The notes beneath the pieces are model-generated. The model saw only the letters and a list, made by a program, of their open reading frames with translations. It was not told the DNA's origin and ran no database searches. Positions 1 to 33,841 of a DNA stretch of 37,122 bases are shown here, in pieces. A program made the position numbers and the translations under genes. Position 1 is the first letter of the stretch, and every line of letters begins with the position of its first letter. This DNA comes from a virus, in IMG/VR virus record IMGVR_UViG_3300021069_000004, positions 1 through 37,122 of that record; one strand, given 5' to 3'.

Positions 1-50
1 GGCTACCCTAGCTTGAATGTATATACCCCCTACAGGCAACACTTTTTTCA

Positions 51-88
51 CGCTCCAAATAATGAAGCGTATCGCTCCAGATAATGGA
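51..88. promoter_or_regulatory. Pair of 16-bp direct repeats upstream of the rightward operon
   Basis: CGCTCCAAATAATGAA (51-66) recurs as CGCTCCAGATAATGGA (73-88), 14 of 16 bases identical, with starts exactly 22 bp apart, close to two helical turns. The pair lies about 100 bp before the ERF gene in the divergent control region. This arrangement suits a regulator binding the same DNA face twice. The protein that binds is unknown; operator function is an inference. Confidence 0.5.
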
Positions 89-92
89 CACC

Positions 93-106
93 ATAAAGGG
101 CTTTAT
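93..106. promoter_or_regulatory. Short palindrome ATAAAG-gg-CTTTAT
   Basis: Six-base arms separated by two bases form a near-perfect palindrome between the direct repeats and the ERF gene. It could be an operator half-site pair. There is no U-run after it, so it is not a convincing terminator. Confidence 0.35.
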
Positions 107-126
107 GACCCCCCTTAAAATACTTA

Positions 127-146
127 CACACTTGTCCAAAAGTGTG
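127..146. promoter_or_regulatory. Inverted repeat CACACTT / AAGTGTG
   Basis: Perfect 7-bp arms (127-133 and 140-146) with a 6-base spacer lie 40 bp before the ERF start. Position and symmetry fit an operator overlapping the promoter of the rightward operon. No convincing -35/-10 pair could be assigned, so the promoter itself is not called. Confidence 0.45.
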
Positions 147-161
147 ATACTGTCAGTCTGC

Positions 162-183
162 AACATTAACCACAGAGGAGAAT
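162..183 (+). promoter_or_regulatory. Shared 5' leader with ribosome-binding site, copy 1
   Basis: This 22-nt block ends in the AGAGGAGAAT ribosome-binding site of the ERF gene (start 187). The identical 22 nt occur on the minus strand at 34264-34285 before another early gene, and 15 nt of it at 34021-34035. Sharing extends well beyond the Shine-Dalgarno core, which suggests a conserved translation-initiation leader or regulatory site. Confidence 0.7.
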
Positions 184-186
184 TAC

Positions 187-789
187 ATGAGAGATGATAA
201 CGGTCAGCAACAGCAGGAACAGGAAGCACAGCAACAGATGGCTTACCTGGGTGTCTATTATAAACTGATGGATGCCAGACAACAATTAGCAGCACTCCCC
301 CTCAAGAAGTCAGGACAAAACAAGTTTGCTGGTTACTTTTATTTTGAACTGGGAGATTTTCTTCCTAGTGTTCAGGATATTTTCTACGCACTTGACTTAT
401 GTTCGGTAATCTCATTCACAGCAGACACGGCTACGCTTACGATCATTGACACACAAGATGGTGGCGAGATAGTCATTACAAGCCCAATGGGGTCAGCAGC
501 CCTCAAAGGTTGCCATGAAGTCCAGAACATAGGCGCAGTCCAGACCTATCAAAGGCGATATCTTTGGGTCACGGCTATGGAGATAGTCGAGCATGATGCC
601 CTAGATGCCTCCGCAGCAGTCGGTACAGATGATGCAGTAAACTTGATTAAGGCGGTACGTTCGTCAGCAAACATGGAGTTGCTCAAGTCTAACTATGATG
701 CAGCTATCGCCATGTGTGGTAAACAGCACCATCCGCGTATCATTGAAGCTAAAGATGCTCGCAAATTACAATTAACCAAAGGAGAATAA
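187..789 (+). CDS. erf: ERF-family single-strand annealing protein
   Basis: Resembles the ERF recombinases (P22 Erf superfamily), which anneal complementary single strands in phage recombination and genome circularisation. The 200-residue product has the typical core: a Lys-rich start (KKSGQNKFAGYFYFELGDFLP, about residues 38-58), the stretch around SPMGSAALKGCHEVQNIGA (about 100-118) and the hallmark QTYQRRYLW (about 120-128), then EHDALDA. The N-terminus is Gln/Glu-rich (residues 5-16). The ATG is preceded by GAGGAG at good spacing. It heads the rightward operon, five bases before an SSB gene, the usual partner of such annealing proteins. The family assignment rests on pattern recognition and is strong. 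Confidence 0.88.
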   Translation: MRDDNGQQQQEQEAQQQMAYLGVYYKLMDARQQLAALPLKKSGQNKFAGYFYFELGDFLPSVQDIFYALDLCSVISFTADTATLTIIDTQDGGEIVITSPMGSAALKGCHEVQNIGAVQTYQRRYLWVTAMEIVEHDALDASAAVGTDDAVNLIKAVRSSANMELLKSNYDAAIAMCGKQHHPRIIEAKDARKLQLTKGE

Positions 790-793
790 CACT

Positions 794-1243
794 ATGAATA
801 TATTCACATTTACAGGACATTTGGCTCAAGACATCATTGTTCGTAGCACTAAAAAGGGTGATGCAGTTTCATCATTCGCAGTCACTATGGATGACGAATC
901 CAACTCTGTAGGCTCATTCGCAGTAGGAGTGAAGTCTGGATGGGGTAAGAACGAAAAGACCCAATGGGTTAATTGCTCATTATGGGGCAAACGTGCCGAT
1001 AGTCTTGCGCCATATCTTTTGAAGGGTCAGGGAGTTGCCATTTCGGGAGAATGTAGCCTACGGTTGTATAAGAAAAATGATGGCTCAGATGGGGCTTCTA
1101 TCGAGGTCAGAGTTCAGGATGTTACCCTGACAGGTAAAAAAGAAGATCGTGCGCCTATGACCCCTCAAATGGCTTCCAAATCGATTCCTAAGGGAGATGG
1201 TGGCTTCGATGCGTTTGATGACGATAGCAGTTTGCCATTCTGA
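794..1243 (+). CDS. ssb: Single-stranded DNA-binding protein (SSB)
   Basis: A 149-residue OB-fold SSB. It begins MNIFTFTGHLAQD, has the TQWVNCSLWGKRADSLAPYL strand pattern in the middle, KGQGVAISGECSLR, then a short linker and the acidic C-terminal tip DDDSSLPF, like the partner-recruiting tail of bacterial SSBs. It protects single strands and would work with the ERF annealing protein just upstream. The start has AAGGAG at proper spacing. Its TGA overlaps the next ATG (TGATG), implying translational coupling. Confidence 0.94.
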   Translation: MNIFTFTGHLAQDIIVRSTKKGDAVSSFAVTMDDESNSVGSFAVGVKSGWGKNEKTQWVNCSLWGKRADSLAPYLLKGQGVAISGECSLRLYKKNDGSDGASIEVRVQDVTLTGKKEDRAPMTPQMASKSIPKGDGGFDAFDDDSSLPF

Positions 1244-1737
1244 TGAAGATATCACTTTATCAGGCTAATGAACTAGCATCCCTCGAACTCTTTGTCGATG
1301 ACGATGGTGTTGTCGATATGGAGGGGTGGGAAAATGCTAAGATGGTGGTGGCTGACAAGCAACGTGCTGTCTGCGCCCATATCAAGAATCAGTCGGCAGG
1401 AGTGTCAATGCTGGAAACTGCGATAGCCTCGTTACTGGAAAAAAAGAGGGTCATCGAGGCTCAACAGGAGAGATTGAAAGCGTACCTACTGGAAAACATG
1501 AAAGAACATGGGGTTAAGGAGATTAAAGCCCTAGATGGTACGTTTTCTGCTACAATCAGTTATCTCCGAGATTCTGAATTGGTCTGGACTTGTGAAACCG
1601 CTGATATTCCTATGGACTTCAAAACCATTAAGACAGTCGCAACACCGTCTAAAACACTTGCCAAAGAAGCAATCTTGAGAGGAGAACCTGTGTCCTGTGC
1701 AGTCTTAACGCATAAAGACAGGCTCACTATCAAATGA
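1243..1737 (+). CDS. Gp157-like phage protein (siphovirus Gp157 family)
   Basis: A 164-residue protein with a long central helical, coiled-coil-prone region (about residues 45-90: SVSMLETAI, LEKKRVIEAQQERLKAYLLENM) and a beta-rich C-terminus. This matches the Siphovirus Gp157 family, reported in some phages to be linked to resistance or nuclease inhibition. The biochemical role is uncertain. It overlaps the SSB stop by one base and the next ATG by four (ATGA), so it is co-translated with the recombination genes. The location fits a recombination or anti-nuclease accessory. Confidence 0.72.
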   Translation: MKISLYQANELASLELFVDDDGVVDMEGWENAKMVVADKQRAVCAHIKNQSAGVSMLETAIASLLEKKRVIEAQQERLKAYLLENMKEHGVKEIKALDGTFSATISYLRDSELVWTCETADIPMDFKTIKTVATPSKTLAKEAILRGEPVSCAVLTHKDRLTIK

Positions 1738-1880
1738 CCGAAGTCGATAAAATTAAGGCTAGGCTTGATATGGCTCGCCAGAAGGTACAAGTTCTGGGAG
1801 ATCAATACCTAGCTGCTCAAGAGGCATACATGAAACTTGTTCGTGAGTATGCGAACGCTATCCTGGAGAACGTAAAATGA
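1734..1880 (+). CDS. Small helical hypothetical protein (48 aa)
   Basis: Starts ATG overlapping the previous TGA (ATGA) and ends in another ATGA overlap, so it sits in an unbroken translational chain. The product begins MTEVDKIKARLDMARQKV and is strongly helical, heptad-like and charged. No family recognised. The reading frame is supported by the tight overlaps on both sides and the even composition. It may be a small partner of the neighbouring Gp157-like protein. Confidence 0.62.
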   Translation: MTEVDKIKARLDMARQKVQVLGDQYLAAQEAYMKLVREYANAILENVK

Positions 1881-2053
1881 CCGAACATAACGCAAAGAAA
1901 CGTGCAGAATCAGTTGCTTACCTGAAAGAACGTGGCAAGTATCTGCTAGATAACAGTTCATTTGTACCCACACCATCACATCTGACCGACATTAAAGTTA
2001 CCATGAAATGCTCGGCTGATACGATGGGCTTCCCCAGAAGGTGTCATAAGTAA
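1877..2053 (+). CDS. Small basic hypothetical protein (58 aa)
   Basis: Begins MTEHNAKKRAESVAYLKE and ends with GFPRRCHK. The start overlaps the preceding stop as ATGA, and its stop overlaps the next start as TAATG. Basic, two cysteines near the C-terminus (KCSAD, RRCHK), no recognised domain. Its place inside the recombination operon is the only clue to its role. Confidence 0.58.
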   Translation: MTEHNAKKRAESVAYLKERGKYLLDNSSFVPTPSHLTDIKVTMKCSADTMGFPRRCHK

Positions 2054-2394
2054 TGCACATACTGCCGAAAGACCTTGCAAATATGTATGTCATGTTTGTG
2101 GGAATGAGGCCGTTGAACCGTTGGAAACTACCACCAGTTGAAGATATAACTTTTCAGATAAATGATGATTTAGACTGTCTAGGCTCTTACTGCCATGATG
2201 GTGACAAGCATATTATTACTATTTCGAGGGCTAAATCCTCACATCTTGCAACTATCCAAAAGACGCTTTGCCATGAGATTATCCATATGTGTCGTGGCGA
2301 GCATCCCTACAAGTACCTTTTACATGATGCTTACTTCCTAAGAAGGAGTACGGCAATCGCACTAGAGTTCGGATTCGACCCATTAGAGTTATAG
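2053..2394 (+). CDS. SprT-like zinc metallopeptidase-domain protein
   Basis: A 113-residue protein with a zincin motif HEIIH at residues 74-78 (context TLCHEIIHMC), preceded by a beta-rich segment and followed by helices. This matches the small SprT-like/SprT-family putative metalloproteases often found in phage early regions. HExxH supplies two zinc ligands and the catalytic Glu. The third ligand could be H83 or H91; this is not certain from sequence alone. The substrate is unknown; cellular SprT/Spartan proteins act on DNA-protein crosslinks, so a DNA-metabolism role is plausible. Starts with TAATG overlap after the 58-aa gene. Confidence 0.66.
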   Translation: MHILPKDLANMYVMFVGMRPLNRWKLPPVEDITFQINDDLDCLGSYCHDGDKHIITISRAKSSHLATIQKTLCHEIIHMCRGEHPYKYLLHDAYFLRRSTAIALEFGFDPLEL

Positions 2395-2401
2395 GAGATG
2401 T

Positions 2402-3181
2402 ATGACTAAATCGCGTAGGCACTTAGTTATTCCAGATGTACAAGCTAAAAGTGGTATTGATTTTGCATTTTTAACTGCAATAGGTAGATTCGCAGCAGAT
2501 AAACAGCCAGATGTGATCGTTTGTGGTGGGGATTTCGCGGATATGCCTTCTCTGTCTAGTTTTGATGTGGGTAAGAAGGAGTTCGAGGGTAGAACGTACT
2601 GGGCTGATATTCAAGCAGCCAGGTTAGCTATGGACACCTTGATGAAGCCTATCCACGCAGAGATCCACAGACAGCATAAGAAGGGTGTAGAGAAGCCTTG
2701 GCATCCTGAACTACATCTAACGCTAGGGAATCACGAACACCGCATAAATCGCGCTATTAACGCTGATCGTAAGCTAGATGGGTTGATAGGGATTAATGAC
2801 TTGCAGTATTACAGGCATGGTTGGCAGATATACCCATTCCTAGAGGTGGTTACTATTGATGGTATTGCTTACTCTCACTACTTTACGAGTGGGATTATGG
2901 GTAGACCTATCTGCTCGGCTGCTGCTTTATTGACTAAACTGCACCAGTCTTGCTTCGCCTTCCACCAACAGGGTAGATTGATTAGCTACGGTAAACGTGC
3001 GGATGGAGTAGAGTTAACAGCTATTTTGGCAGGATCATGCTATGAACATGACGAAGGCTATCTCAATGCCCAGACCAATCAGCATTGGAGAGGGTGTTAT
3101 ATGCTAAATGACGTACAGCCCAACGGTCAATTTGACGAGATGGCTTTAAGTATCAAGTATCTGAAGTCGAAGTATCTGTAA
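2402..3181 (+). CDS. Calcineurin-like metallophosphoesterase
   Basis: A 259-residue protein with the metallophosphoesterase motifs in order: VIPDVQ (D12), GGDFAD (about 42-47), GNHEH (about 109-113) and a later His in the SHYF segment (about 158-161), expected to bind two metals. Such phage enzymes hydrolyse phosphoesters of nucleotides, nucleic acids or proteins; the true substrate cannot be read. RBS AGGAG precedes the ATG. It is the last rightward gene, and its 3' end overlaps the oppositely transcribed endolysin gene by 29 bp. Two ORF ends sharing a coding segment on both strands is unusual but both frames look real. Confidence 0.85.
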   Translation: MTKSRRHLVIPDVQAKSGIDFAFLTAIGRFAADKQPDVIVCGGDFADMPSLSSFDVGKKEFEGRTYWADIQAARLAMDTLMKPIHAEIHRQHKKGVEKPWHPELHLTLGNHEHRINRAINADRKLDGLIGINDLQYYRHGWQIYPFLEVVTIDGIAYSHYFTSGIMGRPICSAAALLTKLHQSCFAFHQQGRLISYGKRADGVELTAILAGSCYEHDEGYLNAQTNQHWRGCYMLNDVQPNGQFDEMALSIKYLKSKYL

Positions 3182-3632
3182 TCGGGTCTATTTGGGTGAA
3201 TAATCGGTACTCGGCTTGCCTTCGTCTGGTCAAGCCTTTTATAGCCTTACCGCCTACTTTGTCATATTTGAGTAATTCCTTCGATGCAGCTTCTCCATCT
3301 TTTCGGAGAATTTTTTGTCGCATCGTACTGCGTTGGAGTGTCCCCAGCCCAAGGTTATAAGCCCAGCTAGTAAGAGCATCAAACTGAGATTGAGTGAGAT
3401 GCACGGTACAGTAGCGTAGCACACCGCGTTCAAATCTTGCCAAATCTGTTCTGAGTAAGACATCAACTTCCTCCTTGGTAAATAGGCGATTATCCGCTTC
3501 TGCTAGTGTAGCACCATTTCCTATAACGTGACCATAACCGACTGTCCAAAACTTTGCAGGGCAGAGGTATGGCTTTAGTCTGCATCCCTCAAAACTTTTG
3601 ATTAGGTCAATGCCTTGTTGTGAGATACGCAT
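3153..3632 (-). CDS. Endolysin, GH24 lysozyme (T4/P22-type muramidase)
   Basis: A 159-residue lysozyme that cleaves the MurNAc-GlcNAc bond of peptidoglycan. The catalytic signature E-8aa-(D/C)-5aa-T is present as E15, C24 and T30 (SFEGC, then FWTVGYGH), and the downstream SQFDALTSWAYNLG motif (about 100-113) is typical. The middle residue is Cys, as in P22-type enzymes, rather than Asp as in T4. There is no N-terminal signal or SAR segment, so release must depend on the holin encoded upstream. No good Shine-Dalgarno is seen before the ATG. It is the last gene of the leftward block and overlaps the phosphoesterase gene tail to tail by 29 bp. Confidence 0.92.
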   Translation of the reverse strand: MRISQQGIDLIKSFEGCRLKPYLCPAKFWTVGYGHVIGNGATLAEADNRLFTKEEVDVLLRTDLARFERGVLRYCTVHLTQSQFDALTSWAYNLGLGTLQRSTMRQKILRKDGEAASKELLKYDKVGGKAIKGLTRRRQAEYRLFTQIDPITDTSTSDT

Positions 3633-3661
3633 ATATTACATTTTCAGGGTTAATAGCTAAT

Positions 3662-3677
3662 CGGACAAAAATGTCCG
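3662..3677. promoter_or_regulatory. Inverted repeat CGGACA-aaaa-TGTCCG in the lysis intergenic region
   Basis: Perfect 6-bp arms around AAAA lie between the holin gene and the endolysin start. Neither strand has a U-run after it, so it is more likely an operator or mRNA hairpin controlling endolysin expression than a terminator. Confidence 0.4.
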
Positions 3678-3694
3678 CTTATAGGTGAGGGTCT

Positions 3695-3736
3695 TGTTGC
3701 ATCTAACGTTGCACCATTGCAACATCTTTTGCAACA
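3695..3736. promoter_or_regulatory. Nested dyad of four GTTGCA half-sites
   Basis: GTTGCA occurs at 3696-3701 and 3708-3713, and its complement TGCAAC at 3718-3723 and 3730-3735. Copies on each side are 12 bp apart, and the set is symmetric about the CCAT at 3714-3717. It can fold as a hairpin with an internal loop in RNA or bind a multimeric regulator in DNA. It lies in the only sizeable gap of the lysis cassette, before the endolysin. Confidence 0.5.
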
Positions 3737-3765
3737 TTCCCGATATATGACATTTTTGCGTTTAA

Positions 3766-4251
3766 TTACTTCTTGGCAAACGCTCTCGACCCGAACCAGA
3801 ATGATAAAACGCTTGCCCAAACGATCTTCATGTCCTCATCCCATAGCTTATCTATGGCTACTGGGAACGGTACTCCAGTTTGTGTAGCGTAGATGAATCC
3901 TGCTACCTCGATAAATACCAGAAGTAGAAGCAGGATATAGGTAACAATGGGGCGCACCAAACTACGAGCATTGATAGCCCATTGACTAGCCCCCTTGCCG
4001 ATCTCAATGTCATGTGTGTACAGGGCTTGTTGCTCTGCGCTAGCTGTCTGCGTCTGAATCTCGTCAAGTTTAATCTCCTCAATCTTTGCTTGTTGTACGA
4101 ATCCAGCCTTCTGGAGTTCAAGTTCTCTCGTCAACTGCAACTGCGCCATCTCCAGTTCGTGCTTCTTGTCGCCCTTGTCCTGGAAGAAGTCTAGCACCTT
4201 GGGAACACCAGCAGTCAAAAAAGACACGATTGTCGTGAATAAACTGAACAT
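3766..4251 (-). CDS. Holin, putative (3TM GTA-type holin family)
   Basis: A 161-residue membrane protein. It has an N-terminal hydrophobic segment (about 1-22, MFSLFTTIVSFLTAGVPKVL), a long charged coiled-coil-like middle (about 25-80), a strongly hydrophobic segment (ARSLVRPIVTYILLLLLVFIEVAG, about 93-120) and a C-terminal hydrophobic stretch (IVWASVLSFWFGSRAFAKK). This layout, with the ARSLVRP and SFWFGSR signatures, fits the 3-TM holin family used for release of gene transfer agents and many phages. It would permeabilise the inner membrane to let the endolysin out. It starts with a TAATG overlap after the small membrane gene at 4251-4505. Confidence 0.8.
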   Translation of the reverse strand: MFSLFTTIVSFLTAGVPKVLDFFQDKGDKKHELEMAQLQLTRELELQKAGFVQQAKIEEIKLDEIQTQTASAEQQALYTHDIEIGKGASQWAINARSLVRPIVTYILLLLLVFIEVAGFIYATQTGVPFPVAIDKLWDEDMKIVWASVLSFWFGSRAFAKK

Positions 4252-4505
4252 TATTTACCTCCGAATAAATGGATTAGATAGCCAATACCTGACCCCAAAG
4301 CAGCACCTGCACCGCCAACAACCATTAACATTCGCCATCCACCCTTGGCTTCGGATAGTGTTAAATTGATAGAGGTGAGCGTAGCAGACAACTGCGTTAT
4401 AGCTGTCGTTATCTCGCTTAAATCAGTTTCAACCCTAGATAGTTTTTCTGTTAACACGGCTTGCGCTACTGCGAGTTCGTTGACTTTTCTGCGTTCTTCT
4501 TCCAT
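4251..4505 (-). CDS. Small coiled-coil/one-TM membrane protein, holin-associated
   Basis: 84 residues: a heptad-rich N-terminal two thirds (LTEKLSRVETDLSEITTAI, Leu/Ile spaced as in a coiled coil) followed by one C-terminal hydrophobic segment (MLMVVGGAGAALGSGIGYLI, about 60-79) containing a glycine zipper. The layout recalls XhlA-type haemolysin proteins and phage antiholins rather than i-spanins, which have the membrane anchor first. It precedes the holin gene with overlapping stop and start codons. A pore accessory or second holin is inferred. Confidence 0.6.
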   Translation of the reverse strand: MEEERRKVNELAVAQAVLTEKLSRVETDLSEITTAITQLSATLTSINLTLSEAKGGWRMLMVVGGAGAALGSGIGYLIHLFGGK

Positions 4506-4511
4506 TATCCA

Positions 4512-5030
4512 TTATCCGTTAAATTTTCTAAAAGGAGTCCATCTGGCTACGAACTGACCAGAGGGCTTCCATCCTATACTTGCCTCATAGCACTTACCAT
4601 TCCCACGATCTTTGACTAGCTTGTACTGAAAGTATTGAACCCCCTCGGCATCTTCAAAGATACGGAGATACGAGCCTTCTATAGCAGGTGCGCGGTCAGA
4701 TGGGTTAACCCCCTCCTCGGACAAGGTTCTGAATGGTGCTGTTCCACCTAGTATTGAGTACGCAAATCCGTACGCGTTGTTACGATATAGCCACATGACA
4801 CGCAGTATGTAGGTATATATTACATTTTGAGAGCCTCTCAACCAACTTGTAGCTTCGATAAACCTCGGTTCTTTGCCATCTAGCGTAGAGTCGTAGGTCT
4901 GAAACCATCTGAGCCATGAGGGTAGGTTGCCATCGCTATCTGCGAAGATAGGCAGGATGGGGTTTATGCAGTAGCCTATTAGGTTTACTGTGAAGTCTAG
5001 GGTTAGGTATATCAGGAAGCGTGTGTACAT
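4512..5030 (-). CDS. Conserved phage hypothetical protein, Trp/Tyr-rich
   Basis: 172 residues, rich in aromatic residues (LPSWLRWFQTYDS, ATSWLRG, IYTYILRVMWLYRN), with a hydrophobic N-terminus (about 1-30) that may be membrane associated. The C-terminal half looks beta-rich (YLRIFEDAEG, FQYKLVKDRGNGKCYEASIGWKPSG). I recognise it only as a type of uncharacterised protein often found next to phage lysis genes. It sits between the tail-fibre accessory and the holin genes; its ATG overlaps the previous TAA. Confidence 0.5.
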   Translation of the reverse strand: MYTRFLIYLTLDFTVNLIGYCINPILPIFADSDGNLPSWLRWFQTYDSTLDGKEPRFIEATSWLRGSQNVIYTYILRVMWLYRNNAYGFAYSILGGTAPFRTLSEEGVNPSDRAPAIEGSYLRIFEDAEGVQYFQYKLVKDRGNGKCYEASIGWKPSGQFVARWTPFRKFNG

Positions 5031-5188
5031 TATGCTGGCTCTGGTACGTTGCCTTCAGCAAGCCACTTTAAATAGACTTGGTAGTCTGTGTTGGCAGGGT
5101 CAAATGGTATGCAAGCATTGTCTGAAAGACGGATTACACCAGCCATTTGTTTAGTAAATGAATCTTTAAGTAATTGATATTCACTCAT
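5030..5188 (-). CDS. Small tail-fibre-linked protein (52 aa)
   Basis: Directly after the tail-fibre gene. The product starts [18 protein letters not shown] and ends [17 protein letters not shown]. The (Y)xxYLxWLAEGNxPEPA ending is typical of short proteins and domains encoded beside phage tail fibres, including tail-fibre assembly proteins. Its TAA shares a base with the next ATG. A fibre-assembly chaperone or accessory role is an inference from the motif and position. Confidence 0.62.
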
Positions 5189-5190
5189 TT

Positions 5191-6822
5191 TTATAACTCC
5201 GCCGAAAAGTTAAATCCATTTGATGTGCCATTTAAATAATAATAACAATCTCCTGCGGCAGCACTATCAACATAAAATGTAACATAATCATTTGTAAAAC
5301 AAGTTGGAGTTGTTGGACCAGCACCACCTGAAGTATTTGTTTGTGTCCAAGAACCTACTTGTGTTGCTGTTGGTGATGTTCGCATTGATTGAGGAAATTT
5401 AATATTAAGTCCTGGTCCTTGTCCTGCTGCATTAGCATTATTTCTAGCAATCAATGATGGTGTTGCTGTTGTTCCTCTTAACGGAAAATAATACCGCTGA
5501 CACAAAGCCAACTCCGTACCATAAGGTCGATAGTCGAATGATGTGGCAGTAGAGCCTTTTTCTAGTTGTACTCCTGTGATGTAGAAGGTTGCACCGTTAG
5601 TGCCTACTACAGATGTTGCGCCTGTGGCTGAAAGATATACAGAACCAGTCCATGCACCCGCTGTTCCACTCATTGATGACCCACTACCCAAACTAAATAT
5701 AACTTTTATTCCAATTCCATTGGTTGTGAGCCAAGTACCACTTGTTGACCCTGTAATTGTGACTGAAATTGTTGTCCAAGTATTTGCTACTGGGATTGAA
5801 TAACTGAATGGATAGCATTGGGTATTTGCACTATTTAAAAGAGAGCCACCAAATGTTCCAGTTAAAGATGAATAAACTTGAAACGACATAGTGACGGTTT
5901 TAGCATTGGCTGTTCCCCAAGCTAAGTCTGTAATATTTAATCCTTCAATGCGTTGCTGTAAGACAAAATAATCTCCAGCTAGAACTGCATAAGCGGATAA
6001 AGATGTTGCCCCTAGATAGTTAATAAACCCTACTGGTGGAGTTACCGCACCAGCATTTTGTTGAGCAGAGTATTTAGAGGCTTGGGTTAAATCAGCCGAC
6101 CATCTATCAACCAAATATTGTCCTGATGTAGGAGTAACACTAGCCCCAGCATTACGCTGGTCAATCACCATAGCCGAATTTATCAGTCTATTCTTGAAGC
6201 CACAATACCCTACGGTTGTGCCTGTACCGCCTTGTGCCTCAGTTAGTGGAGTTGTAAGACCACTTAAACTGGTTATATTAGAATTAGCCCCAGCAGTAGC
6301 AACTAAGTAGCTGTTTAATAACTGGAATCTTGTACCATCGTACTGTACTACCACTACCCTACCCGAAGTTAACGCACCAGCCGTTAGAGCAGTAGTGCCA
6401 TTTGTGACCGCTATAGCACCCAATCCGTCTATGTTTATGGTTACATTGGTAGTATTCGTACTCCCGACGATAAACGTGAACATATCACCATTGACATAGG
6501 CTGTATATGTTGGTGTCATTACACCTGTGATTACATCAGCAGTTCCAGCTACGGTAATTAGCTTATTTATGCCAGTTTGTAACTGTTCAAACCTGACAGA
6601 ATGACCATTGGCAGTACCAGCAGACAATCCTGTGAGTTTAAATGACCCCATAGGTAGGTTAGTAGTGGGTGGAGATTGCCCATCCCTTGTTACGCAGTTA
6701 GATAGGGCAGTAGCTAGATCCGCAGTCAATGTGTTGAATGTTGAATCTAGTATGTCCGTACCTGCTACTACTGGTTGCCCAGCAGTCAACGTGTATTGTC
6801 CTGAACCGTTATAAGGTGGCAT
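5191..6822 (-). CDS. Tail fibre protein
   Basis: 543 residues. The N-terminal part (about 1-85: [20 protein letters not shown], then [19 protein letters not shown]) is the virion-anchoring pattern of podovirus-type fibres. A beta-rich Thr/Gly/Asn-rich region follows (about 90-190), then a [12 protein letters not shown] hinge (about 193-204). The C-terminal module starts at [20 protein letters not shown] (about 209) and YLVDRWS, a receptor-facing beta-sandwich type common in phage fibres. It should recognise the host surface. The ATG has GGAAGGA upstream. It is first in the fibre/lysis block, with an HNH gene inserted on its 5' side in the opposite orientation. Confidence 0.82.
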
Positions 6823-6876
6823 TTGCTTTTCCTTCCATTATGTGCCATAATATCATTTTATGTACACGGTTAATAT

Positions 6877-7449
6877 ATGTCATATTTGATTGTACCCCCA
6901 TTATACAGCACTTGGTGTGGCATGAAGTCTAGATGTAACAATCCCAACAATCCCCACTATAAGAATTATGGTGGCAGAGGCATTACAATCTGTGCCGAAT
7001 GGTCTATTAGCTATCATGCTTTCATTGCAGATATGGGATTGAAGCCTGTCGGTACTACCCTAGACAGAATAGACAACAACCAAGGGTACAGTAAAGCTAA
7101 TTGCAAGTGGTCTACACGCAAAGAACAACAACGCAACCAGACAGTTACACGCTTTATCACAGTCGATAACGTAGTGTATAAAGTGGCTGATTTAGCTGAA
7201 CAGTCTGGGCTTAAATCCGATACCATCATTAGCCGATCAGAACGTGGGCTTACCTTGCAAGACATAGTAGCCAAGACAATCTTTAGGGATTTAGCTGGAT
7301 TAGCTTTGGGCGCACAGGCTAGTTCAATAGCGCGAAAGGCTCGCACACATTGCAAGTATGGGCATCCTTTTAGGGATGGATTAAGAAAATGCAACATCTG
7401 TAATGCAGCCAGAGAAAGGAAGCGTAATCAAATTAAAAGGGGTTCCTGA
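6877..7449 (+). CDS. HNH homing-type endonuclease with C-terminal zinc finger
   Basis: 190 residues. The segment YSTWCGMKSRCNNPNN, then YKNYGGRGITICAEW (about 10-43), followed by TTLDRIDNNQGYSKANCKW and STRKEQQRN (about 60-86), is the phage HNH family core. A helix-turn-helix-like region (VADLAEQSGLKSDTIISRS, about 103-121) and a CxxxH/CxxC finger (THCKYGHPF, KCNICNAARERKR, about 156-183) follow, probably for DNA recognition. It is the only plus-strand gene inside the minus-strand virion block, which supports recent insertion as a mobile homing gene. No clear RBS is seen. Related to the HNH gene at 19338-19988. Confidence 0.85.
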   Translation: MSYLIVPPLYSTWCGMKSRCNNPNNPHYKNYGGRGITICAEWSISYHAFIADMGLKPVGTTLDRIDNNQGYSKANCKWSTRKEQQRNQTVTRFITVDNVVYKVADLAEQSGLKSDTIISRSERGLTLQDIVAKTIFRDLAGLALGAQASSIARKARTHCKYGHPFRDGLRKCNICNAARERKRNQIKRGS

Positions 7450-7537
7450 ACCGTTAAATGCCATGAGTTAACCTCTTGTGTTATAATAAGTTATGAAGTT
7501 TTTGTACTGCATAGTTCTGTATACTTTTCTCATCGTA

Positions 7538-9628
7538 TTAGCGTCTTGGCTGATTGCCACCTACCATCGCGCCTGTCAATGGTGGCAGAACATTCAGCAT
7601 AGCCGAGTTTCTGGCTTGTTCCGCTGTGAGCGCAAATGGTTTGGCTACTACATTGGGGTTCATCGCCTGAGAAACAGCCATTTCGTTCTTTATGCCTCCT
7701 GTCGCAAATCTACCAGCAGCTAACATGGCTTGCCCCATAGGGATTTGACCAGCTATCCCAGAGATAATGGGATTGTTCATCGCAGCAGACACAAATGTGT
7801 TAGAAGTGTTAACAGGTGAACTAGCTGGGTGCTTATTGATATAAGAGCCTACCCTAGACATAGTGTTTAATTGCTCTATCTCCTCTGGTGAGAAGAACGC
7901 AGCCAACTTATCTTTACCAAATGTCCTCAATGCTTTAGCATATCTCTCTGGCGAAAATGGTGCATCACCAGCAACATTCTCTCCGTAGGCAGCACGTTTC
8001 AGGTGATTTCCCATCTGTTCTCTAGCTGCATTGAACTGGTCAGGATCTGTGCGTTGTAGTAATTTAGCCAGTTGTTGTACATCGGCTGTTTTGCCACCAA
8101 TAATGTACTGTTGTACCAAAGTATCTGGTTCAGCGTTCCCCCTGGACACAGCTTTGAGAGCAGGAACAGCATCTTGTAGTTTGAATCTCTCTTGAGCAGC
8201 CTTGACTGCTGGTGCGAATGGGCCACCAGTAGCATCTACATCGTATACAGCTTTTTTGACTGCATCACGCATTTCCTTGAGTGCTGTGTTGACAGTAGTG
8301 TCTTTACCCACATGGGTATTAATATTCTTGAGCAGTAGGTCTGCATCCTCAATGGTGAATACTTTGGTTTGTTTGCCCCCGAATAATCCATATTGCTTAA
8401 ACGCATCTAGTGGTAAGCTTTTCATTACTGTTTCGCTATACCTAGATGACATATCCGCAATATCTTGCGCCACACCTTGAAGTGGAACATCTAAGTCCTT
8501 ACCAGCAGACTTTCTGGCAGCTTGATATAGGGCAGATACGTTCTGTCTCATGCCCTCATCTGTTCTTAGCAGAGATGCAGCCATGTTTTTACCAACAGTT
8601 TGATGCTCTGCATCCGAACCGTACCCAGCCATCATGTCTTGAAGTTGGGTGTTTTGTGTCCTAAAACGACCTGCCAAGTCCATTGAATTACCGCGCAAAT
8701 TAATCTCTTGTGCGTATTGGTTAGCATCTCTAGTTAACTGACCTTGAGTGCCTTGCATACCAAGTTTGCCAAAGTCACGTTCGCGCAACTTAGCAGCAGC
8801 ATCTAACTCCTTGCCACCGAAAGCTGCATCTATGACTTGCTGTCTTATGGTTTGTATCTCGGCTGGGTCTATATCGGCTGGGTCTATCCCTGAATCTTTG
8901 AACGCTTTAGCTAGTGAAGCATCGACTTCTGTGTTAATCCTAGCTGTCTTGGTTACTGGGTTCTCTGGGAATAGCCCTCTAATTAATGACCTTCCAACAT
9001 TGGTGTTGGCTAGATAGGTGACTGCTCTCTCTACTGTACCGCCAAGTACACCGCCTACGGTAGCACCGATTGCGCCACCAGTAGCTGTATCTCCCTCTGG
9101 TGCATTAGCTGCGCCTAGAACCATACCGCTACCAGCACCGCCTACAACAGCTTGCTTGAATGGCTGTTTTGCTAGTTTAGGGATAGTTGTAGCTAGTTGA
9201 TACCCTTTAACACCTGTGTAAAGCGCAGTAGGATCTAGCAGTTGTCCTGTAGTCCTAAAGCCAGATTGCGGATGAGTTGCACCTTGTGGGAATAGCGTAT
9301 CGCCAAGCCCACCGCCCTTGTTCCCTGTTACCAAACTAGACAAGGTTGGCTCTGCTGGGCTGATCTTATTCAGCACGTTGCGCGTCATGTCAGTCATGCC
9401 AGCACCAACATCTGCTACTTTAGACAGGATAGGATGCTCTGCTTGCCATGCAGTCTTAGATGATTGCTGTATGAACTCAGGAGTAACGTGCGATGTATTA
9501 ATATCTATAACAGTCCTTGGGTATGGTGTAGCTACCATATTTTGCTGAATGGCAGCCTCTATCTGAGCATTACTCATGCTATCTGGGAACTCTACAGTTC
9601 CGTGTCCAGGTACATCAATTAAAGCCAT
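7538..9628 (-). CDS. Internal virion / DNA-ejection protein, putative
   Basis: 696 residues. The N-terminus MALIDVPGHGTVEFPDSMSN, then AQIEAAIQQN, is a motif common at the start of podovirus internal virion proteins. A Gly/Ala-rich hydrophobic stretch (about 160-203, AVVGGAGSGMVLGAANAPEG and GGAIGATVGGVLGG) looks like a glycine-zipper membrane-inserting segment. Most of the rest is long charged helix, and a second Gly/Ala/Met-rich hydrophobic patch lies near the C-terminus. No enzymatic motif is seen. It would be ejected with DNA and help form a channel through the envelope, like P22 gp16/gp20-type proteins. Start overlaps the previous TAA (TAATG). Confidence 0.68.
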   Translation of the reverse strand: MALIDVPGHGTVEFPDSMSNAQIEAAIQQNMVATPYPRTVIDINTSHVTPEFIQQSSKTAWQAEHPILSKVADVGAGMTDMTRNVLNKISPAEPTLSSLVTGNKGGGLGDTLFPQGATHPQSGFRTTGQLLDPTALYTGVKGYQLATTIPKLAKQPFKQAVVGGAGSGMVLGAANAPEGDTATGGAIGATVGGVLGGTVERAVTYLANTNVGRSLIRGLFPENPVTKTARINTEVDASLAKAFKDSGIDPADIDPAEIQTIRQQVIDAAFGGKELDAAAKLRERDFGKLGMQGTQGQLTRDANQYAQEINLRGNSMDLAGRFRTQNTQLQDMMAGYGSDAEHQTVGKNMAASLLRTDEGMRQNVSALYQAARKSAGKDLDVPLQGVAQDIADMSSRYSETVMKSLPLDAFKQYGLFGGKQTKVFTIEDADLLLKNINTHVGKDTTVNTALKEMRDAVKKAVYDVDATGGPFAPAVKAAQERFKLQDAVPALKAVSRGNAEPDTLVQQYIIGGKTADVQQLAKLLQRTDPDQFNAAREQMGNHLKRAAYGENVAGDAPFSPERYAKALRTFGKDKLAAFFSPEEIEQLNTMSRVGSYINKHPASSPVNTSNTFVSAAMNNPIISGIAGQIPMGQAMLAAGRFATGGIKNEMAVSQAMNPNVVAKPFALTAEQARNSAMLNVLPPLTGAMVGGNQPRR

Positions 9629-11427
9629 TATTCAATCTTCCCTGTGTCTGGGTTGTACTTCTTAACACCACCAGAAGGTGCAGAACCTGACTTCTTGCTC
9701 AAGTCGAACTGTCCACCACCCCATTCGTTTTGGTATTTCTGCGCTGCTGCGGATTGCACATTATCCAATATGCCAAGTGCACCGTTATACGCATCTCTAG
9801 CTGCTTTTGGCTCATCAGTTCTTGCAACAACAGCCAGATTGGAGGCCATCTTACTCCATTCAGCTACAGCCAAAGCACCAATAGAGCCATTTTCTTGCTT
9901 GTTAATACCCAAGCCTCTAGCCTCGAATTGAGCCTGAATACTTCTGAATAAATTAGCGACTTTTTGCACATCTTTATCCCAATCAGCAGTACGACCACCA
10001 ATTTGTCCGAATGATTTATCAAATGCTGGGTTTGCTAGTAATGATTTAATATCATTACGCAATTTATCTGAGCCACGATTGAGCGAAGTAAGGCTTTGAA
10101 ATTCTCCTGAACTATCACTTTTGGCTTTCATCCATGTTGGAGAACCAATTCTCAACTCTACCTTACCAGTAGGCTGACCCTTGTCATCTAGCACTTCTAT
10201 TTCATCTTTGGCAAGTTTACCTTGTAGTGCTTGGGCTCTGGCATCTTGCCTGTCTTCTTGGCGCATATTCTGACCTCTACGAGTTGTAGCATCAGCTATT
10301 TTCTGTATCTCCATCCTAAAGTTATGCTCGCTTTGGGCTTTAGCTTTGTCATCTATTACTCGTTGTGCATCGCGTTCTTTCCTGTCTGTAATCTGGGCTG
10401 TCGCAAGGTCTTGCCTTAGTTCTCTATTCATCTCGCCTTCGCGCTGCATTTTTCTGTCAGCAGTTGCAGCATTAGCCTTGGATGTTTCTGAAGCTAGACG
10501 CTCTTTAATATATGCACCTACTGCATCAGCAGCGTGAAACTGATCGTTCGCTATGAGTTTTTGTTGCTGCGCGAGCCATTCACCCTCGTTATAACCTTTA
10601 ACTGCTGGCATACGTTCAGTAACCGCAGCTATATTCTCTACTCTAGCTGGTCTAGCATCAAATGGATTCTCACCGCGCAAGATACGCGCAGTAGCCTCGT
10701 TATTGGCAGGGGATTCCTGTGGCACTTCCCTAGGCAATATTTGCTCTGCTGGTGCAGATGCAGTTCCTCCTGTTAGGGTAGGGTTCTTAATATCGGCAGC
10801 TAGGACAGCACCAGGGGTAGTATTGCCTAGTGGCGCATTACGCACAGCGTTAGCCAATGGCACATTTTCAGATGCAGTTAGTTCCTGCGCGTCTGTGGGT
10901 AGATGTGTGGTATACCGATTGCTCGTAGGATTAGCGTTTATATTGCCAGTAGCTGTAGTTGTAGGTGGAACGTAAGCCTGTGCGCCATTTGGTGTAGGTG
11001 CAGGTTCGCCAGTAAACATACTCTGTGGCTCTCTAGTGGTTGCCTGATCCTCTGGGTTAACTAGAACCGTACTAGCAGGTGTTACTTCTCTATCGTATGC
11101 TGGTTGTGCATCTGCTGTTGATAGTCCAGCCTGTGTAAGAGCATTGGCTTTTGTCGCTGCGTTCCTTGCATCTATCAGTTCCTGTGCCTTTGCTGTACCA
11201 GCTTGCTCATTCTTGTAATTGTTATATTGCATCATCGCATCAGCGAGATTCTGTGTTAAGGTTGGCTTAACGTACCATCCACCTACCATTTGACCTTGTG
11301 TGGGCTTAAACGCGTTCCTGAGTGCGCGAGCAGTCGCAGCTTGCTCTCTAGCACCAAGTATCTCCATGTCAGCACCACTTAGCTGACCGTATTTCTCTGA
11401 AAACTTAGATGTGTAATCACTAGGCAT
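9628..11427 (-). CDS. Internal virion / ejection protein, putative (599 aa)
   Basis: Highly helical, Ala/Gln/Glu/Arg-rich protein with long charged regions (about 290-390, with repeated DRKMQREGEMNRE, DRKERDAQRV-type segments). Residues about 45-75 contain VGGWYVKPTLTQNLADAM, matched by the small protein encoded just upstream (11420-11680). No enzymatic motif recognised. Position between two other large internal proteins and its composition fit an ejection protein that accompanies DNA. The ATG lies within the previous gene's last codons (8-nt overlap). Confidence 0.6.
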   Translation of the reverse strand: MPSDYTSKFSEKYGQLSGADMEILGAREQAATARALRNAFKPTQGQMVGGWYVKPTLTQNLADAMMQYNNYKNEQAGTAKAQELIDARNAATKANALTQAGLSTADAQPAYDREVTPASTVLVNPEDQATTREPQSMFTGEPAPTPNGAQAYVPPTTTATGNINANPTSNRYTTHLPTDAQELTASENVPLANAVRNAPLGNTTPGAVLAADIKNPTLTGGTASAPAEQILPREVPQESPANNEATARILRGENPFDARPARVENIAAVTERMPAVKGYNEGEWLAQQQKLIANDQFHAADAVGAYIKERLASETSKANAATADRKMQREGEMNRELRQDLATAQITDRKERDAQRVIDDKAKAQSEHNFRMEIQKIADATTRRGQNMRQEDRQDARAQALQGKLAKDEIEVLDDKGQPTGKVELRIGSPTWMKAKSDSSGEFQSLTSLNRGSDKLRNDIKSLLANPAFDKSFGQIGGRTADWDKDVQKVANLFRSIQAQFEARGLGINKQENGSIGALAVAEWSKMASNLAVVARTDEPKAARDAYNGALGILDNVQSAAAQKYQNEWGGGQFDLSKKSGSAPSGGVKKYNPDTGKIE

Positions 11428-11680
11428 TTGGTACTCCTACTGGTGGAACTGCGGTACTAGGTGGCATAGTGTTCTTCCATTGTTGCATAGCACCATAGTT
11501 CTTGAGTGCTTGAGCCAGTTGAGATGTAGCACTAGGTGCAACAGCCCATCCACCTACGTTCTGTGTTTGTGGGGCTTGTGCGCCTAAGATTAAGCCAGCA
11601 GCATTGTGGTCAGCACGTCTATCACGTTGACCTTGATAGGTGTTATCGTATGTCTGTGTTGCATCGAATGGATTGTTCAT
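11420..11680 (-). CDS. Small virion-region protein, paralogous to the next gene's N-terminus
   Basis: 86 residues. The central part NVGGWAVAPSATSQLAQALK, then NYGAMQQWKN, aligns without gaps to MVGGWYVKPTLTQNLADAMM, then QYNNYKNEQ of the 599-aa protein encoded next. This suggests a shared interaction element or a partial duplication. The C-terminus is Pro-rich (MPPSTAVPPVGVPNA). Start overlaps the preceding TAA/TAG region by one base. Structural or assembly role inferred from context only. Confidence 0.55.
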   Translation of the reverse strand: MNNPFDATQTYDNTYQGQRDRRADHNAAGLILGAQAPQTQNVGGWAVAPSATSQLAQALKNYGAMQQWKNTMPPSTAVPPVGVPNA

Positions 11681-12825
11681 TACAGCCCTAACATCGAGTA
11701 GTTAACCATCTTGAATCCAGTTGGGTGCATAACCACAGCTTCTGGCATAATTTGCTCTACTTCGTCAGCCATAACACCGCGTGAATGTTCGCCCCATACA
11801 TAATCCCATGAGTAAATGTTCATGCCGTTATCGTGCTTGCCGATTAGTTGAATGTTAGTCTTGAGCCTACGATCTGATGCAGCTAACGCTGGTGCTGCTG
11901 CTGGTGCAGCATACATCAACGCACCAGCCATACCAAGTTGTCCTAAACCACCCATCGTAGCCCCTGCTCTGGCTTGGTCAGCATTGTAGATACCTTGTGC
12001 GTATTGTCCTTTAGCAGTCGCAGCACCCAGCATATCAGGCCCAGCAGTACCTTGTTGCATAGCCACGTTCTGTTGTGTAGGCAAGGTGGCTGTGTTGAGT
12101 TGCTGACCAGTTCTGACCGCGTTCAGCATATTGATAGGGTTTTGTTGCAATGCTTGTCTTGCTGCGAAGTCCTGTGCGCTAGTAGCGTTCTGGAGTTGTG
12201 AGTTCTGCAAGTTCTGCCCGAACATACCCTGTGCAGCACCTACAGCTTGTCCTGTAGCTGAGTTCCTAGCTGATTCATACGCTTGCTGACGAGCATTAGA
12301 TTGGTTCAGCATAGCTGCGTTATAAGCCTCTGAGCCTTGCGTAACACCTTGATTAGCTAGTCGAGATTCGAGTGCCTTGTCTGACTGAGCAAACTGTGGG
12401 TCGAGGTATTGAGTGGAGTTCTTGTACAGCGCGTTCTGTACGTTTTGCTGTAATAGTTGTGGATCGCCAGCATTAGTAGATAGGGCATTGGCTGCACCTA
12501 GTGGCTGGTTTAACGCGCTTTTAACGTAGCCCAGACCTTGTTGCGCTACACCGCCAAGCTGTTCGTTAATCTGATTGTTTTGGTCAAATTGTCGTTGTTG
12601 CGTAGGCGATAGACTTGTGGTCATGTTCCACCCAGCGTCTTTGTTCAAGACACCATCAACACCGTAAGTAGGTGTTTGACTGTAGTTTATAGAGCCATAC
12701 GGAGTTGTTTGGTTAACGCGATTGGCACTAGCTGCTGCTCTAGCTGCTTCAAGATTACCAGCAGCAGTTTGTGTCGCTGCGCCTGCGTAGTCTGGTGCTG
12801 GTGGTGGAGATGACTTGCTACCCAT
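11680..12825 (-). CDS. Virion protein with C-terminal S74 chaperone-like domain
   Basis: 381 residues. N-terminal Ser/Pro/Ala patch (MGSKSSPPPAPDYAGAA), a long Gln/Asn/Ala-rich helical middle (about 60-270), a hydrophobic Ala/Met/Pro segment (about 290-315, GQLGMAGALMYAAPAAAPAL), then a short Peptidase_S74-like domain starting at about S317 (SDRRLKTNI, SWDYVWGEHSRGVMADEVEQ, MPEAVVMHPTGFKMVNYSML). In endosialidases and fibres this domain trimerises the protein and cuts itself off at the Ser. Here it is only about 65 residues. An ejection or needle-type virion protein is likely. RBS AAGGAA lies before the ATG. Confidence 0.7.
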   Translation of the reverse strand: MGSKSSPPPAPDYAGAATQTAAGNLEAARAAASANRVNQTTPYGSINYSQTPTYGVDGVLNKDAGWNMTTSLSPTQQRQFDQNNQINEQLGGVAQQGLGYVKSALNQPLGAANALSTNAGDPQLLQQNVQNALYKNSTQYLDPQFAQSDKALESRLANQGVTQGSEAYNAAMLNQSNARQQAYESARNSATGQAVGAAQGMFGQNLQNSQLQNATSAQDFAARQALQQNPINMLNAVRTGQQLNTATLPTQQNVAMQQGTAGPDMLGAATAKGQYAQGIYNADQARAGATMGGLGQLGMAGALMYAAPAAAPALAASDRRLKTNIQLIGKHDNGMNIYSWDYVWGEHSRGVMADEVEQIMPEAVVMHPTGFKMVNYSMLGL

Positions 12826-12890
12826 AGTATTTTCCTTTAATTAGCTATGAGTGGGTTGCCACTTTTAAGCATTATACCTTAAATTGATGA

Positions 12891-13289
12891 TTAGATGTAC
12901 TTACATTGCTCTCTTGTCATGGTCATAAGTATCATATCGCCATTTCTACACGCATCCTTGATGACAGCTTCCTCGATATAACCGAACTTTAGATTCATGT
13001 TATAAGCCCTTGTATTGTCGCTTGATACCATGCCAATTAGCTTATTAACCTTTGCAGTATCAAAGACATACCTAAAACAGAACTTAATCCACTTCAAGTC
13101 CATCCTGTTGCCATCTACAGCTAAATGACCCATGATACTGGCTGTATTGTAGTCCTCAAACCCTGCTACAGCGCATATAAGACCATTTCGTTCAAGTCCT
13201 ATATACACACCCCTACCAGCAAAATAAGTACCGCCCAGCCTTGACATTAACCACCTTCCAAGTTCCTCTTGGCGATCAGTTACTATCAA
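12891..13289 (-). CDS. GNAT-fold N-acetyltransferase-like protein, probable TTG start
   Basis: 132 residues from the TTG at 13289: MIVTDRQEELGRWLMSRLGG at the N-terminus, and SSDNTRAYNMNLKFGY (the GNAT acceptor-side motif with Asn-x-x-x-Ala and LxxFGY) about residues 85-100. Similar GNAT-like proteins occur in podovirus virion clusters. The TTG is chosen because AAGGG lies nine bases upstream and the TTG shares two bases with the previous gene's TGA, matching the overlap style of the genome. An in-frame upstream TTG (13331) has no RBS, and the next ATG would remove the conserved start. Substrate unknown. Confidence 0.68.
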   Translation of the reverse strand: MIVTDRQEELGRWLMSRLGGTYFAGRGVYIGLERNGLICAVAGFEDYNTASIMGHLAVDGNRMDLKWIKFCFRYVFDTAKVNKLIGMVSSDNTRAYNMNLKFGYIEEAVIKDACRNGDMILMTMTREQCKYI

Positions 13290-14812
13290 AAGCCGATACC
13301 CTTCTCGAATACATGGGTAGTAGATTGCCAAGTAAACGAAGCATTGTTACTAGCTGTGGTAATGTGCATACCAGCGCAGTAGCCTATCCCACCAGAGGTA
13401 TTCCACGCTGACTTCACGTTACCGTTGGATGAACCCCATACGCAGCCGTTCCACTTGGATGTATTCCAGATACCAGAAGTTCCTGGTGATGGTACGGTAG
13501 CTGTTGATAATGGTTGATTAAAGTTGTAGTCTATATTCAGCCCTAGCGTAATTCCTACTGAGTGTGAAGTAGTGGAGAATATCGGTCTAGCAAGTTTGAA
13601 GTGCTTGAGATTCTGTGTTCCAAGATAGTTAAATGCCTGAATAATATCAGTATTTATGTTAGCACCATTATCTGCGTTGGTATCCCATGCCTTGCATACG
13701 TTCCCTAGTCCATCACCATAGTATATGTCATCAGCGTACATCTCCCAGCACCGAGCATCCCAGCCTGTGAACTTGCACCAAGCACCAGTTATGGTGTTCA
13801 TAGCGTACTGATAATTATTGCTATTGCCAACAGGAACATTCATAAGTAGCATATTCTCTCTTGGGAACAGTCTGCATTGCCACCCAGCATTAGCTGAATA
13901 TGTGCTTATATCCAATGACATAATGTATTGAATCTTATCAGTTAAGCTGACTTTATTGCTTACGCGTGAACTCATCAATGCCTTAGACATTGGCATAAGC
14001 CCATCTTGAGTAATGATTAGTAGGTCGGATGCGTACTGCGACATACATCTTCTACCTATTGGTGAGCCGATCTGATAAGTACCCACCAATCCCCATGTAG
14101 TAGATGACGATGGATCAATTCCTCGATATGTGGCTACCTCACCCTCAGAAGTAACGAATACAGCGTAGTCATCCATACCTGCGCCAGAGTCGATAGTCCA
14201 ACTACCCATAGCCATCAAGTATCCACCGCGCTTGAATATCGACGAGAAGTCAATGGCTGTGGCTGCACCTGCAATAGCGTTTACTCCTAGATACCAGACC
14301 TTCATGGTGTTCTTCTGTATGAACCATTGTCGTTGCATATGAACCGTTACGTTGATTAGCGTAGTGGCAGTAACCCCTGTGATAGCAGGATTAGTCCAAG
14401 TTGTACCATCGAACGCTTTGGGTGCATCTACACCATTGACACATGATAGGTAATACCCACCAGAGGTAGCAAAGTTAACGTGCTGCCAGCTAGAGTTCGT
14501 ACAGGTCGTTACAGCAGCCCCTACAGCCCCACCAGCAGTCACATCGTAGAAGTTAGTACCAGCGACAGCTATTAGCTTCTGCGTCGTGCCAGCGTTGTAT
14601 GCCATGATGGTGTTGACAGCAGCACCTAGCCCTGTAGCCCACTTAGAGTAGCCAGCCCTCACCCTTACACTTGTAGTAAGTGGAAACCAGTTGTCCATCT
14701 TAACCGCATCAGCAGCATCCATAGCTGCATAGGAATCTCGCGCATTTAGACCGCCAACTGGTGCAGATACGTTAGCTGTGGCTGATACTCGTTTAGTGTT
14801 TCGTATTTTCAT
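13286..14812 (-). CDS. P22 gp10-like tail stabilisation protein, putative
   Basis: 508 residues, almost entirely beta-strand-like with Gly/Thr/Asn-rich turns. The N-terminus (TKRVSATANVSAPVGGLNAR, then DSYAAMDAADAVKMDNWFP) is a recognisable start of podovirus tail proteins related to P22 gp10, which plugs and stabilises packaged DNA and joins the adaptor to the tail needle/spikes. Repeated FxTSEGEVATYRG- and LLIITQDGLMPMS-type blades suggest a propeller-like body. Position downstream of the head-tail adaptor and upstream of ejection proteins agrees with this. The start overlaps the previous TGA (ATGA). Confidence 0.65.
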   Translation of the reverse strand: MKIRNTKRVSATANVSAPVGGLNARDSYAAMDAADAVKMDNWFPLTTSVRVRAGYSKWATGLGAAVNTIMAYNAGTTQKLIAVAGTNFYDVTAGGAVGAAVTTCTNSSWQHVNFATSGGYYLSCVNGVDAPKAFDGTTWTNPAITGVTATTLINVTVHMQRQWFIQKNTMKVWYLGVNAIAGAATAIDFSSIFKRGGYLMAMGSWTIDSGAGMDDYAVFVTSEGEVATYRGIDPSSSTTWGLVGTYQIGSPIGRRCMSQYASDLLIITQDGLMPMSKALMSSRVSNKVSLTDKIQYIMSLDISTYSANAGWQCRLFPRENMLLMNVPVGNSNNYQYAMNTITGAWCKFTGWDARCWEMYADDIYYGDGLGNVCKAWDTNADNGANINTDIIQAFNYLGTQNLKHFKLARPIFSTTSHSVGITLGLNIDYNFNQPLSTATVPSPGTSGIWNTSKWNGCVWGSSNGNVKSAWNTSGGIGYCAGMHITTASNNASFTWQSTTHVFEKGIGF

Positions 14813-16089: not shown

Positions 16090-16261
16090 AAGACTTGTTG
16101 CGTAGTGCGTGTGCCATCTTAACGTGCGCTGGTAGGTTCTTGCTTGCTGGGTGCGAATACTCCTTGCCTACAGTCTGTGGTATTCCTACCTTCTTGGCAA
16201 ATTCTGGATTATGTGCAACGGCTTGCATCAGATGTAATTGGGCTTTACTCTTTGCTGGCAT
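16082..16261 (-). CDS. Small DUF3008-like protein (59 aa)
   Basis: Starts MPAKSKAQLHLMQAVAHNPE and continues FAKKVGIPQTVGKEYS. The MPAKSxAQ...M.AV...P..A...GI pattern is that of the DUF3008 family of small basic proteins found in phages and bacteria. The ATG at 16261 shares a base with the previous gene's TAA; a 9-codon upstream extension without that coupling is less likely. Function unknown. Confidence 0.68.
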   Translation of the reverse strand: MPAKSKAQLHLMQAVAHNPEFAKKVGIPQTVGKEYSHPASKNLPAHVKMAHALRNKSYG

Positions 16262-17370: not shown

Positions 17371-17387
17371 ACACTTCCCCTATAAAG

Positions 17388-19988: not shown

Positions 19989-20048
19989 AATACCCTCCCG
20001 ATGTGATGAGAAGGTATTATACCACGAATTACAAGGTCGTGTTATCTA

Positions 20049-33553: not shown

Positions 33554-33841
33554 TCAGCCTCCGCACATTTCGTTATCACGTTTAGCATCTGCTCTAGCCT
33601 CATCAGCCTCGCGCTTTTCTTCTTCCATCGCCATGTAACACTCATCCCACAACTTGCTATCTAGGATGTCCTTGTCAAGTTTACCGAGCAGATAGTATAT
33701 ATCATTCGCAGCCATGTCTGTGCTGATATAAACCTTGGTTACTTCGCAGCCAAAGTCCCTGTCCTCGCCTGAGTATTCACCTTCTACGGTTACTTCTAGG
33801 TTATCGCCTACTACTGTGTCAAATTCTACTGTGCTGTTCAT
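33554..33841 (-). CDS. Acidic hypothetical protein (95 aa)
   Basis: Begins MNSTVEFDTVVGDNLEVTVE with a beta-rich N-terminal half (LEVTVEGEYSGEDRDFGCEV, TKVYIS) and a strongly acidic/charged helical end (AMEEEKREADEARADAKRDN). No family recognised. Overlaps the preceding gene's stop (ATGA). Confidence 0.55.
   Translation of the reverse strand: MNSTVEFDTVVGDNLEVTVEGEYSGEDRDFGCEVTKVYISTDMAANDIYYLLGKLDKDILDSKLWDECYMAMEEEKREADEARADAKRDNEMCGG

Follow-up and report, generated by a model that had tools for sequence, protein, structure and literature searches.

Start-associated sequences (SAS) have so far been described mainly in one mycobacteriophage cluster, cluster K. They are short asymmetric repeats with AGGAG that lie a few nucleotides before start codons, occur only at non-structural genes, whose families differ between relatives, are conserved past the stretch that pairs with 16S rRNA, and are rare in host genomes (PMC3203893). 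Part of the SAS copies stand behind a promoter (ESAS), and others do not (PMC11373665). In the portion of the report on Citrobacter phage Mordin that was consulted, a 26-bp SAS-like repeat, CCAACAATCCTAAACTGGAGAATCTA, is placed upstream of eight hypothetical gene starts (PMC4611695). The leader sequence described below resembles the cluster K SAS in each of the features just listed, including the placement of some copies behind a promoter and of others elsewhere.

Leader copies in the window and its relatives

The window, by which we mean the whole stretch analysed, is a 37,122-base virus record from a freshwater-type phage. It contains the 22-nt leader AACATTAACCACAGAGGAGAAT at 162-183 on the plus strand, 5' of the ERF gene; the same 22 nt at 34264-34285 on the minus strand, 5' of a 67-aa gene whose start is at 34259; and, at 34021-34035 on that strand, a 15-nt core 5' of a 58-aa gene whose start is at 34014. 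The two 22-nt arms are 100% identical and the 15-nt match is likewise exact, both as originally predicted. That prediction also held that these matches exceed chance, which is borne out for the 22 nt but not for the 15 nt alone. At up to three mismatches the 22-mer has exactly two matches in the window and none in 100 dinucleotide shuffles, the composition gives a chance expectation of about 6e-5 direct and 4e-5 inverted pairs of this length (about 1e-4 in total), and the longest inverted repeat measures 22 nt versus at most 17 nt in 60 Markov-simulated windows. Counting both strands, the only 14-mers that occur three times in the window are those of the leader core. The 15-nt match is not significant by itself, as about 1.5 such pairs are expected in the window; we accept this third copy as real because it precedes a start codon and recurs in relatives.

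The core of the leader is ATTAACCACAGAGGA, and its part 5' of AGGAG is ATTAACCAC; an A/C-rich stretch is thus followed by a Shine-Dalgarno sequence, and A/C richness is also seen in the leaders of other phage groups. The distance from the end of the leader to the ATG is 6-8 nt in all three window copies and in all intact copies of relatives. Where no hairpin is present, the leaders show no more folding than shuffled sequences (z +0.35 to +1.4), and they are predicted to be open around the Shine-Dalgarno sequence. Only these three copies occur in the window, and the majority of its small genes have no leader. At 772-785 the SSB leader (TTAACCAAAGGAGA) resembles a degenerate copy; since it falls within the 3' coding end of ERF (..QLTKGE*), we did not count it.

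ERF (187-789, plus strand) opens the rightward early unit and encodes an Erf-like ssDNA-annealing protein (PHROG 155, 5.9e-20; Pfam ERF, 4.9e-9). The 67-aa gene (34056-34259, minus strand) has relatives in the contigs L203 and L204 (86% and 57% identity), and the 58-aa gene (33838-34014, minus strand) has one in L205 (51% identity); a search of PHROG and Pfam found no family match for either. Among annotated phages we found no near DNA relative of window positions 1-20000, and the closest portal match reaches 42%. In the relative L123 the two ends of the window adjoin, separated by 17 extra bases; the two 22-nt copies therefore lie about 3 kb apart and head two oppositely read units, and the record probably represents a circular or circularly permuted genome opened at 37122/1. 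A Mom-like DNA modification gene is located at 34630-35241 on the minus strand (Pfam, 3e-24); at the same position L123 has an open reading frame in which we read, by reading only, a TSPPYN motif typical of DNA methyltransferases.

Relatives were found by scanning for the leader core and for neighbouring proteins; a first 14-mer scan of viral contigs gave chance matches for the most part. Six related phage contigs harbor nine further intact copies and one copy with a 3-nt deletion, although several of these contigs are short and further copies may be missed: three copies in L209, two in L211/L225, two in L210, one in L212, one in the distant relative L217, and the altered copy, which has lost AGA, in L123. 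Over the 12 intact copies in six genomes A(T/C)TAACCACAGAGGA is invariant apart from its T/C position, one of the two copies in L210 reading ACTAACC, while the sequence on either side varies. The next base, which ends the Shine-Dalgarno sequence, is G in eight of the copies and A in four. The conserved flank and the varying last Shine-Dalgarno base together mean that pairing with the anti-Shine-Dalgarno does not explain the conservation. Sharing that extends upstream of the Shine-Dalgarno core, a part of the original prediction, is thus seen over all 12 intact copies, and retention of AGGAG alone with random flanks did not occur in the relatives. L123 shows the reverse: the flank is kept and the Shine-Dalgarno sequence is partly lost, in a copy whose counterparts at ERF are conserved in L209, L210 and L211. 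Selection on the leader flank is indicated, since the flank is kept while promoter, hairpin and gene all change.

In L211 the opposite-strand leaders around 1346 (minus) and 3830 (plus) are identical over 30 nt (AACATTAACCACAGAGGAGAATCAAAATGA), versus 22 nt in the window; this exceeds the identity in the other genomes and hints at conversion between leader copies. In L217 a long stretch is duplicated in inverted orientation (about 1502-3299 and 12337-14134), which may be an artefact of assembly.

Proposed promoters, hairpins and a probable exchangeable gene slot

Reading the sequence upstream of ERF, we propose a promoter at 123-151 on the plus strand, consisting of TTACAC, a 17-nt spacer, and GATACT with TG before it. 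Identity over the block 141-180 is 100% in each of L209, L210 and L211, and the flanking DNA drops in identity; in L210 the block is fully conserved although ERF is 69% identical and the DNA upstream about 50%. Since this block contains an extended -10-like element, TGTGATACT, the first leader copy is probably the 5' untranslated region of the ERF transcript, whose start we predict at about 158, just 5' of the leader. The proposed promoters were read by eye, and in a consensus promoter scan they fell below threshold, the ERF site included. An inverted repeat, CACACTT-GTCCAA-AAGTGTG, lies over the proposed ERF promoter at 127-146; its arms are largely kept in relatives, and its centre is variable.

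On the minus strand, 34286-34370 is a putative promoter region, called type I, for the accessory gene unit; over 80 nt it shares 89-95% identity with L212 and L211, and it is unrelated in L209 and L210 except for a TTGACA..GTCAA part. The accessory leader copy stands behind a type I region in the window, L211 and L212, and behind a different one (type II) in L209 and L210. A perfect palindrome, TTGACAATTGTCAA, at 34352-34365, upstream of the second leader copy, has near-copies in the same place in L209, L210 and L211; it is possibly an operator or part of the promoter.

The third leader copy is preceded by a hairpin, AGGGGC-GCAA-GCCCCT, at 34036-34051 on the minus strand, between the stop codon of the 67-aa gene and the leader (fold z -2.7). 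Its counterparts in L209 and L217 are likewise preceded by a GGGGC-GNAA-GCCCC hairpin, which in the window and L217 lies just past the stop codon. Among 26 distinct GGGC-NNNN-GCCC stems located before a Shine-Dalgarno sequence and start, the loop is of the GNAA type in 20 (GCAA 14, GAAA 5, GTAA 1), versus few among 53 such stems located elsewhere. The outer pairs of the hairpin covary, with five double-changed cells in an alignment of 15 recurring copies versus 1.2 in shuffles, and many related phage contigs have, between small genes, the same module of GGGGCGCAAGCCCC followed by CTAAGGAG or by a leader. Querying annotated phages with hairpin plus leader gave no record covering 80% of the query; the matches were mostly short and statistically weak. 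Termination is the less likely function, because the coding strand lacks a T-run at the window hairpin, and an insulating or 3'-protecting role seems likelier.

In five genomes four different genes stand behind the same accessory leader: the 67-aa gene in the window, unrelated genes of 56 aa in L209 and 71 aa in L211, and, directly behind the leader in L212 and L210, the 95-aa gene g33554 (33554-33841, minus strand, in the window), which is constant in relatives. Between the window and L209 the leader is identical at 25 of 25 positions, whereas identity is 0.44 both upstream and downstream (shuffles, about 0.35); between the window and L211 it is 0.95 upstream, 1.00 in the leader and 0.42 downstream. 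The single leader of L212 is a hybrid: its pre-core part matches the second window copy and its post-core part (AAATGACATGAA) the third, as expected if a gene between two leaders was lost or gained. The layout is promoter and leader, then an optional unit of gene, hairpin and leader, then the constant gene, and the best reading of these sequences is that the leader copies border a single-gene cassette slot, occupied in the window by the 67-aa gene. Neither this border nor the hairpin was part of the original prediction. At 15-30 nt the leaders are short for recombination; alternatively, the swap points could lie nearby, with the leader retained through selection.

A parallel architecture is found in a second, only distantly related group of ERF phages (L135, L138, L139, L145, L146, L149, L152, L153 and L154), whose leader is ATTGACAACAACA. 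The first copy stands behind a conserved promoter (TTGACA, 17 nt, TAAAGT) and another behind a GGGGGC-GCAA-GCCCCC hairpin, with a variable gene between the copies. No mutual similarity at E 1e-3 is seen among the slot occupants of L135, L145, L146, L153 and L154; the gene that follows the second copy is homologous across the group (47-98%); and L138 and L152 have an empty slot, the order being promoter, leader and constant gene. In L204 at least four starts are preceded by a third leader, CACGAAAAGGAGAA. A shared 13-mer or longer sequence upstream of two or more starts occurs in 17 of 98 loci versus 0-2 in five in-gene controls, where the 98 loci are related to one another and the 17 do not represent as many independent cases.

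Possible roles of the leader

We consider it fairly probable that the sequence is a lineage-specific start-associated leader that serves ribosome loading in the RNA and forms the border of a cassette slot in the DNA. The leader would supply small early or accessory genes, as well as the first gene of the ERF unit, with an unstructured A/C-rich stretch and a Shine-Dalgarno sequence, and in the RNA it would most likely act as a standard ribosome-loading site, placed straight after a promoter (first and second copies) or after an insulating hairpin past the upstream stop codon (third copy). Swaps, gains and losses of genes in the slot would probably proceed via the short stretches of homology that the leaders provide, perhaps with help from the ERF annealing protein of the phage itself. 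A more sweeping version seems to us rather doubtful: each phage lineage would keep a private leader as a universal ribosome-landing pad and as docking homology for single foreign genes, after a promoter or a GNAA hairpin, with the copies kept alike by the ERF annealing protein, whose own gene carries one.

The gene swaps fall exactly at the leader, and the 30-nt leader of L211 looks as if one copy had converted the other. Both observations also fit a neutral junction relic, in which recombination happened to attach incoming genes to a promoter and ribosome-binding site already in place, the Shine-Dalgarno sequence alone matters, and the flank is co-inherited. However, a neutral flank is expected to drift, whereas here the tail of the Shine-Dalgarno sequence varies and the flank does not; moreover, the upstream TTAACCAC is kept across differing promoters and hairpins, and in L210 and L217 together with far-diverged genes. 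We therefore regard a neutral relic as unlikely. An independently selected ribosome-binding site at each gene, host-derived or generic but strong, would explain AGGAG at good spacing, and the core does occur with an ATG 8 nt later in two enterobacterial contigs and one cyanobacterial contig. The 31 matches in 257 billion bases of bacterial and archaeal genomes are, however, of about chance order, few of them precede starts, and the other phage groups have different leaders, which makes this explanation highly improbable. As to a host origin, a scan of genome contigs gave mainly chance matches and other repeats, and we rejected it.

The original prediction offered an early-gene translation signal or the site of a phage regulator. 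The former is favoured by the position of the leader, the predicted lack of structure at the Shine-Dalgarno sequence and the upstream conservation. CsrA/RsmA-type sites consist of ACANGGA in a loop; the leader has one extra base and no stable hairpin presenting GGA, and we discarded this candidate. A regulator controlling both units, bound to the DNA or, as a translational repressor, to the RNA leader, would account for a sequence that is common to divergent early units and whose conservation exceeds the Shine-Dalgarno sequence, and the cluster K authors suggest the like for SAS (PMC3203893, PMC11373665). However, the dyad in the leader is weak, with six of nine pairs, and falls to four of nine in three of the 12 intact copies and in L123; in addition, the third copy and its counterparts in L209 and L217 stand behind a hairpin and not a promoter, for which the window copy, following a hairpin past a stop codon, leaves no room. 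Nor did a candidate RNA-binding protein turn up in passing. A regulator site thus appears quite unlikely, although an RNA-binding regulator might still fit, and a palindromic operator of a dimeric regulator is not supported, as the dyad symmetry is not kept in all copies.

If the preferred reading of a start-associated leader at a slot border is correct, lineage-specific analogues of SAS in several phage groups, located at the exact borders of gene change between close relatives, suggest a simple rule for plugging in early genes. The leader would then also provide a search handle, as genes behind a phage's private leader would be recent accessory genes and a likely place for host-takeover and anti-defence proteins.

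Comparison with described systems

The closest known shuffling cassettes are probably the PeSLs of T4-type phages. A PeSL combines an early promoter with a stem-loop terminator and lies between genes of a plastic region; these short intergenic cassettes, reportedly treated by Arbiol in 2010 and Comeau in 2014, are said to shuffle small early genes. The window differs in that its repeat appears to be a translation-start leader and its hairpin lacks both a T-run and a following promoter. A hairpin followed by a promoter-like copy is found only in L135, where at 4185-4275 a hairpin and then a further promoter copy come after the occupant gene, an arrangement that resembles the T4 cassettes.

The Mordin repeat, as given in the consulted portion of its report, likewise has an A/C-rich stretch and then GGAGAAT; it differs in sequence, has more copies and belongs to a Felix O1-like myophage, and that portion describes neither a slot nor a hairpin (PMC4611695).

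The cluster K SAS consensus, GGGATAGGAGCCC, is not matched by ATTAACCACAGAGGA, the common part being the AGGA(G) core. Genomes of the window group have two to three copies, on both strands and in divergent units, whereas cluster K genomes have 11-19 SAS, nearly all in one orientation. The third window copy is preceded by a GNAA hairpin, whereas in cluster K a 17-bp inverted repeat precedes the copy, and, unlike the cluster K SAS, the leader copies border an exchangeable gene slot. The best reading is that the leader is an analogue of the cluster K SAS that would work in a similar way; because its sequence, its copy number and its use on two strands differ, we do not file it as SAS.
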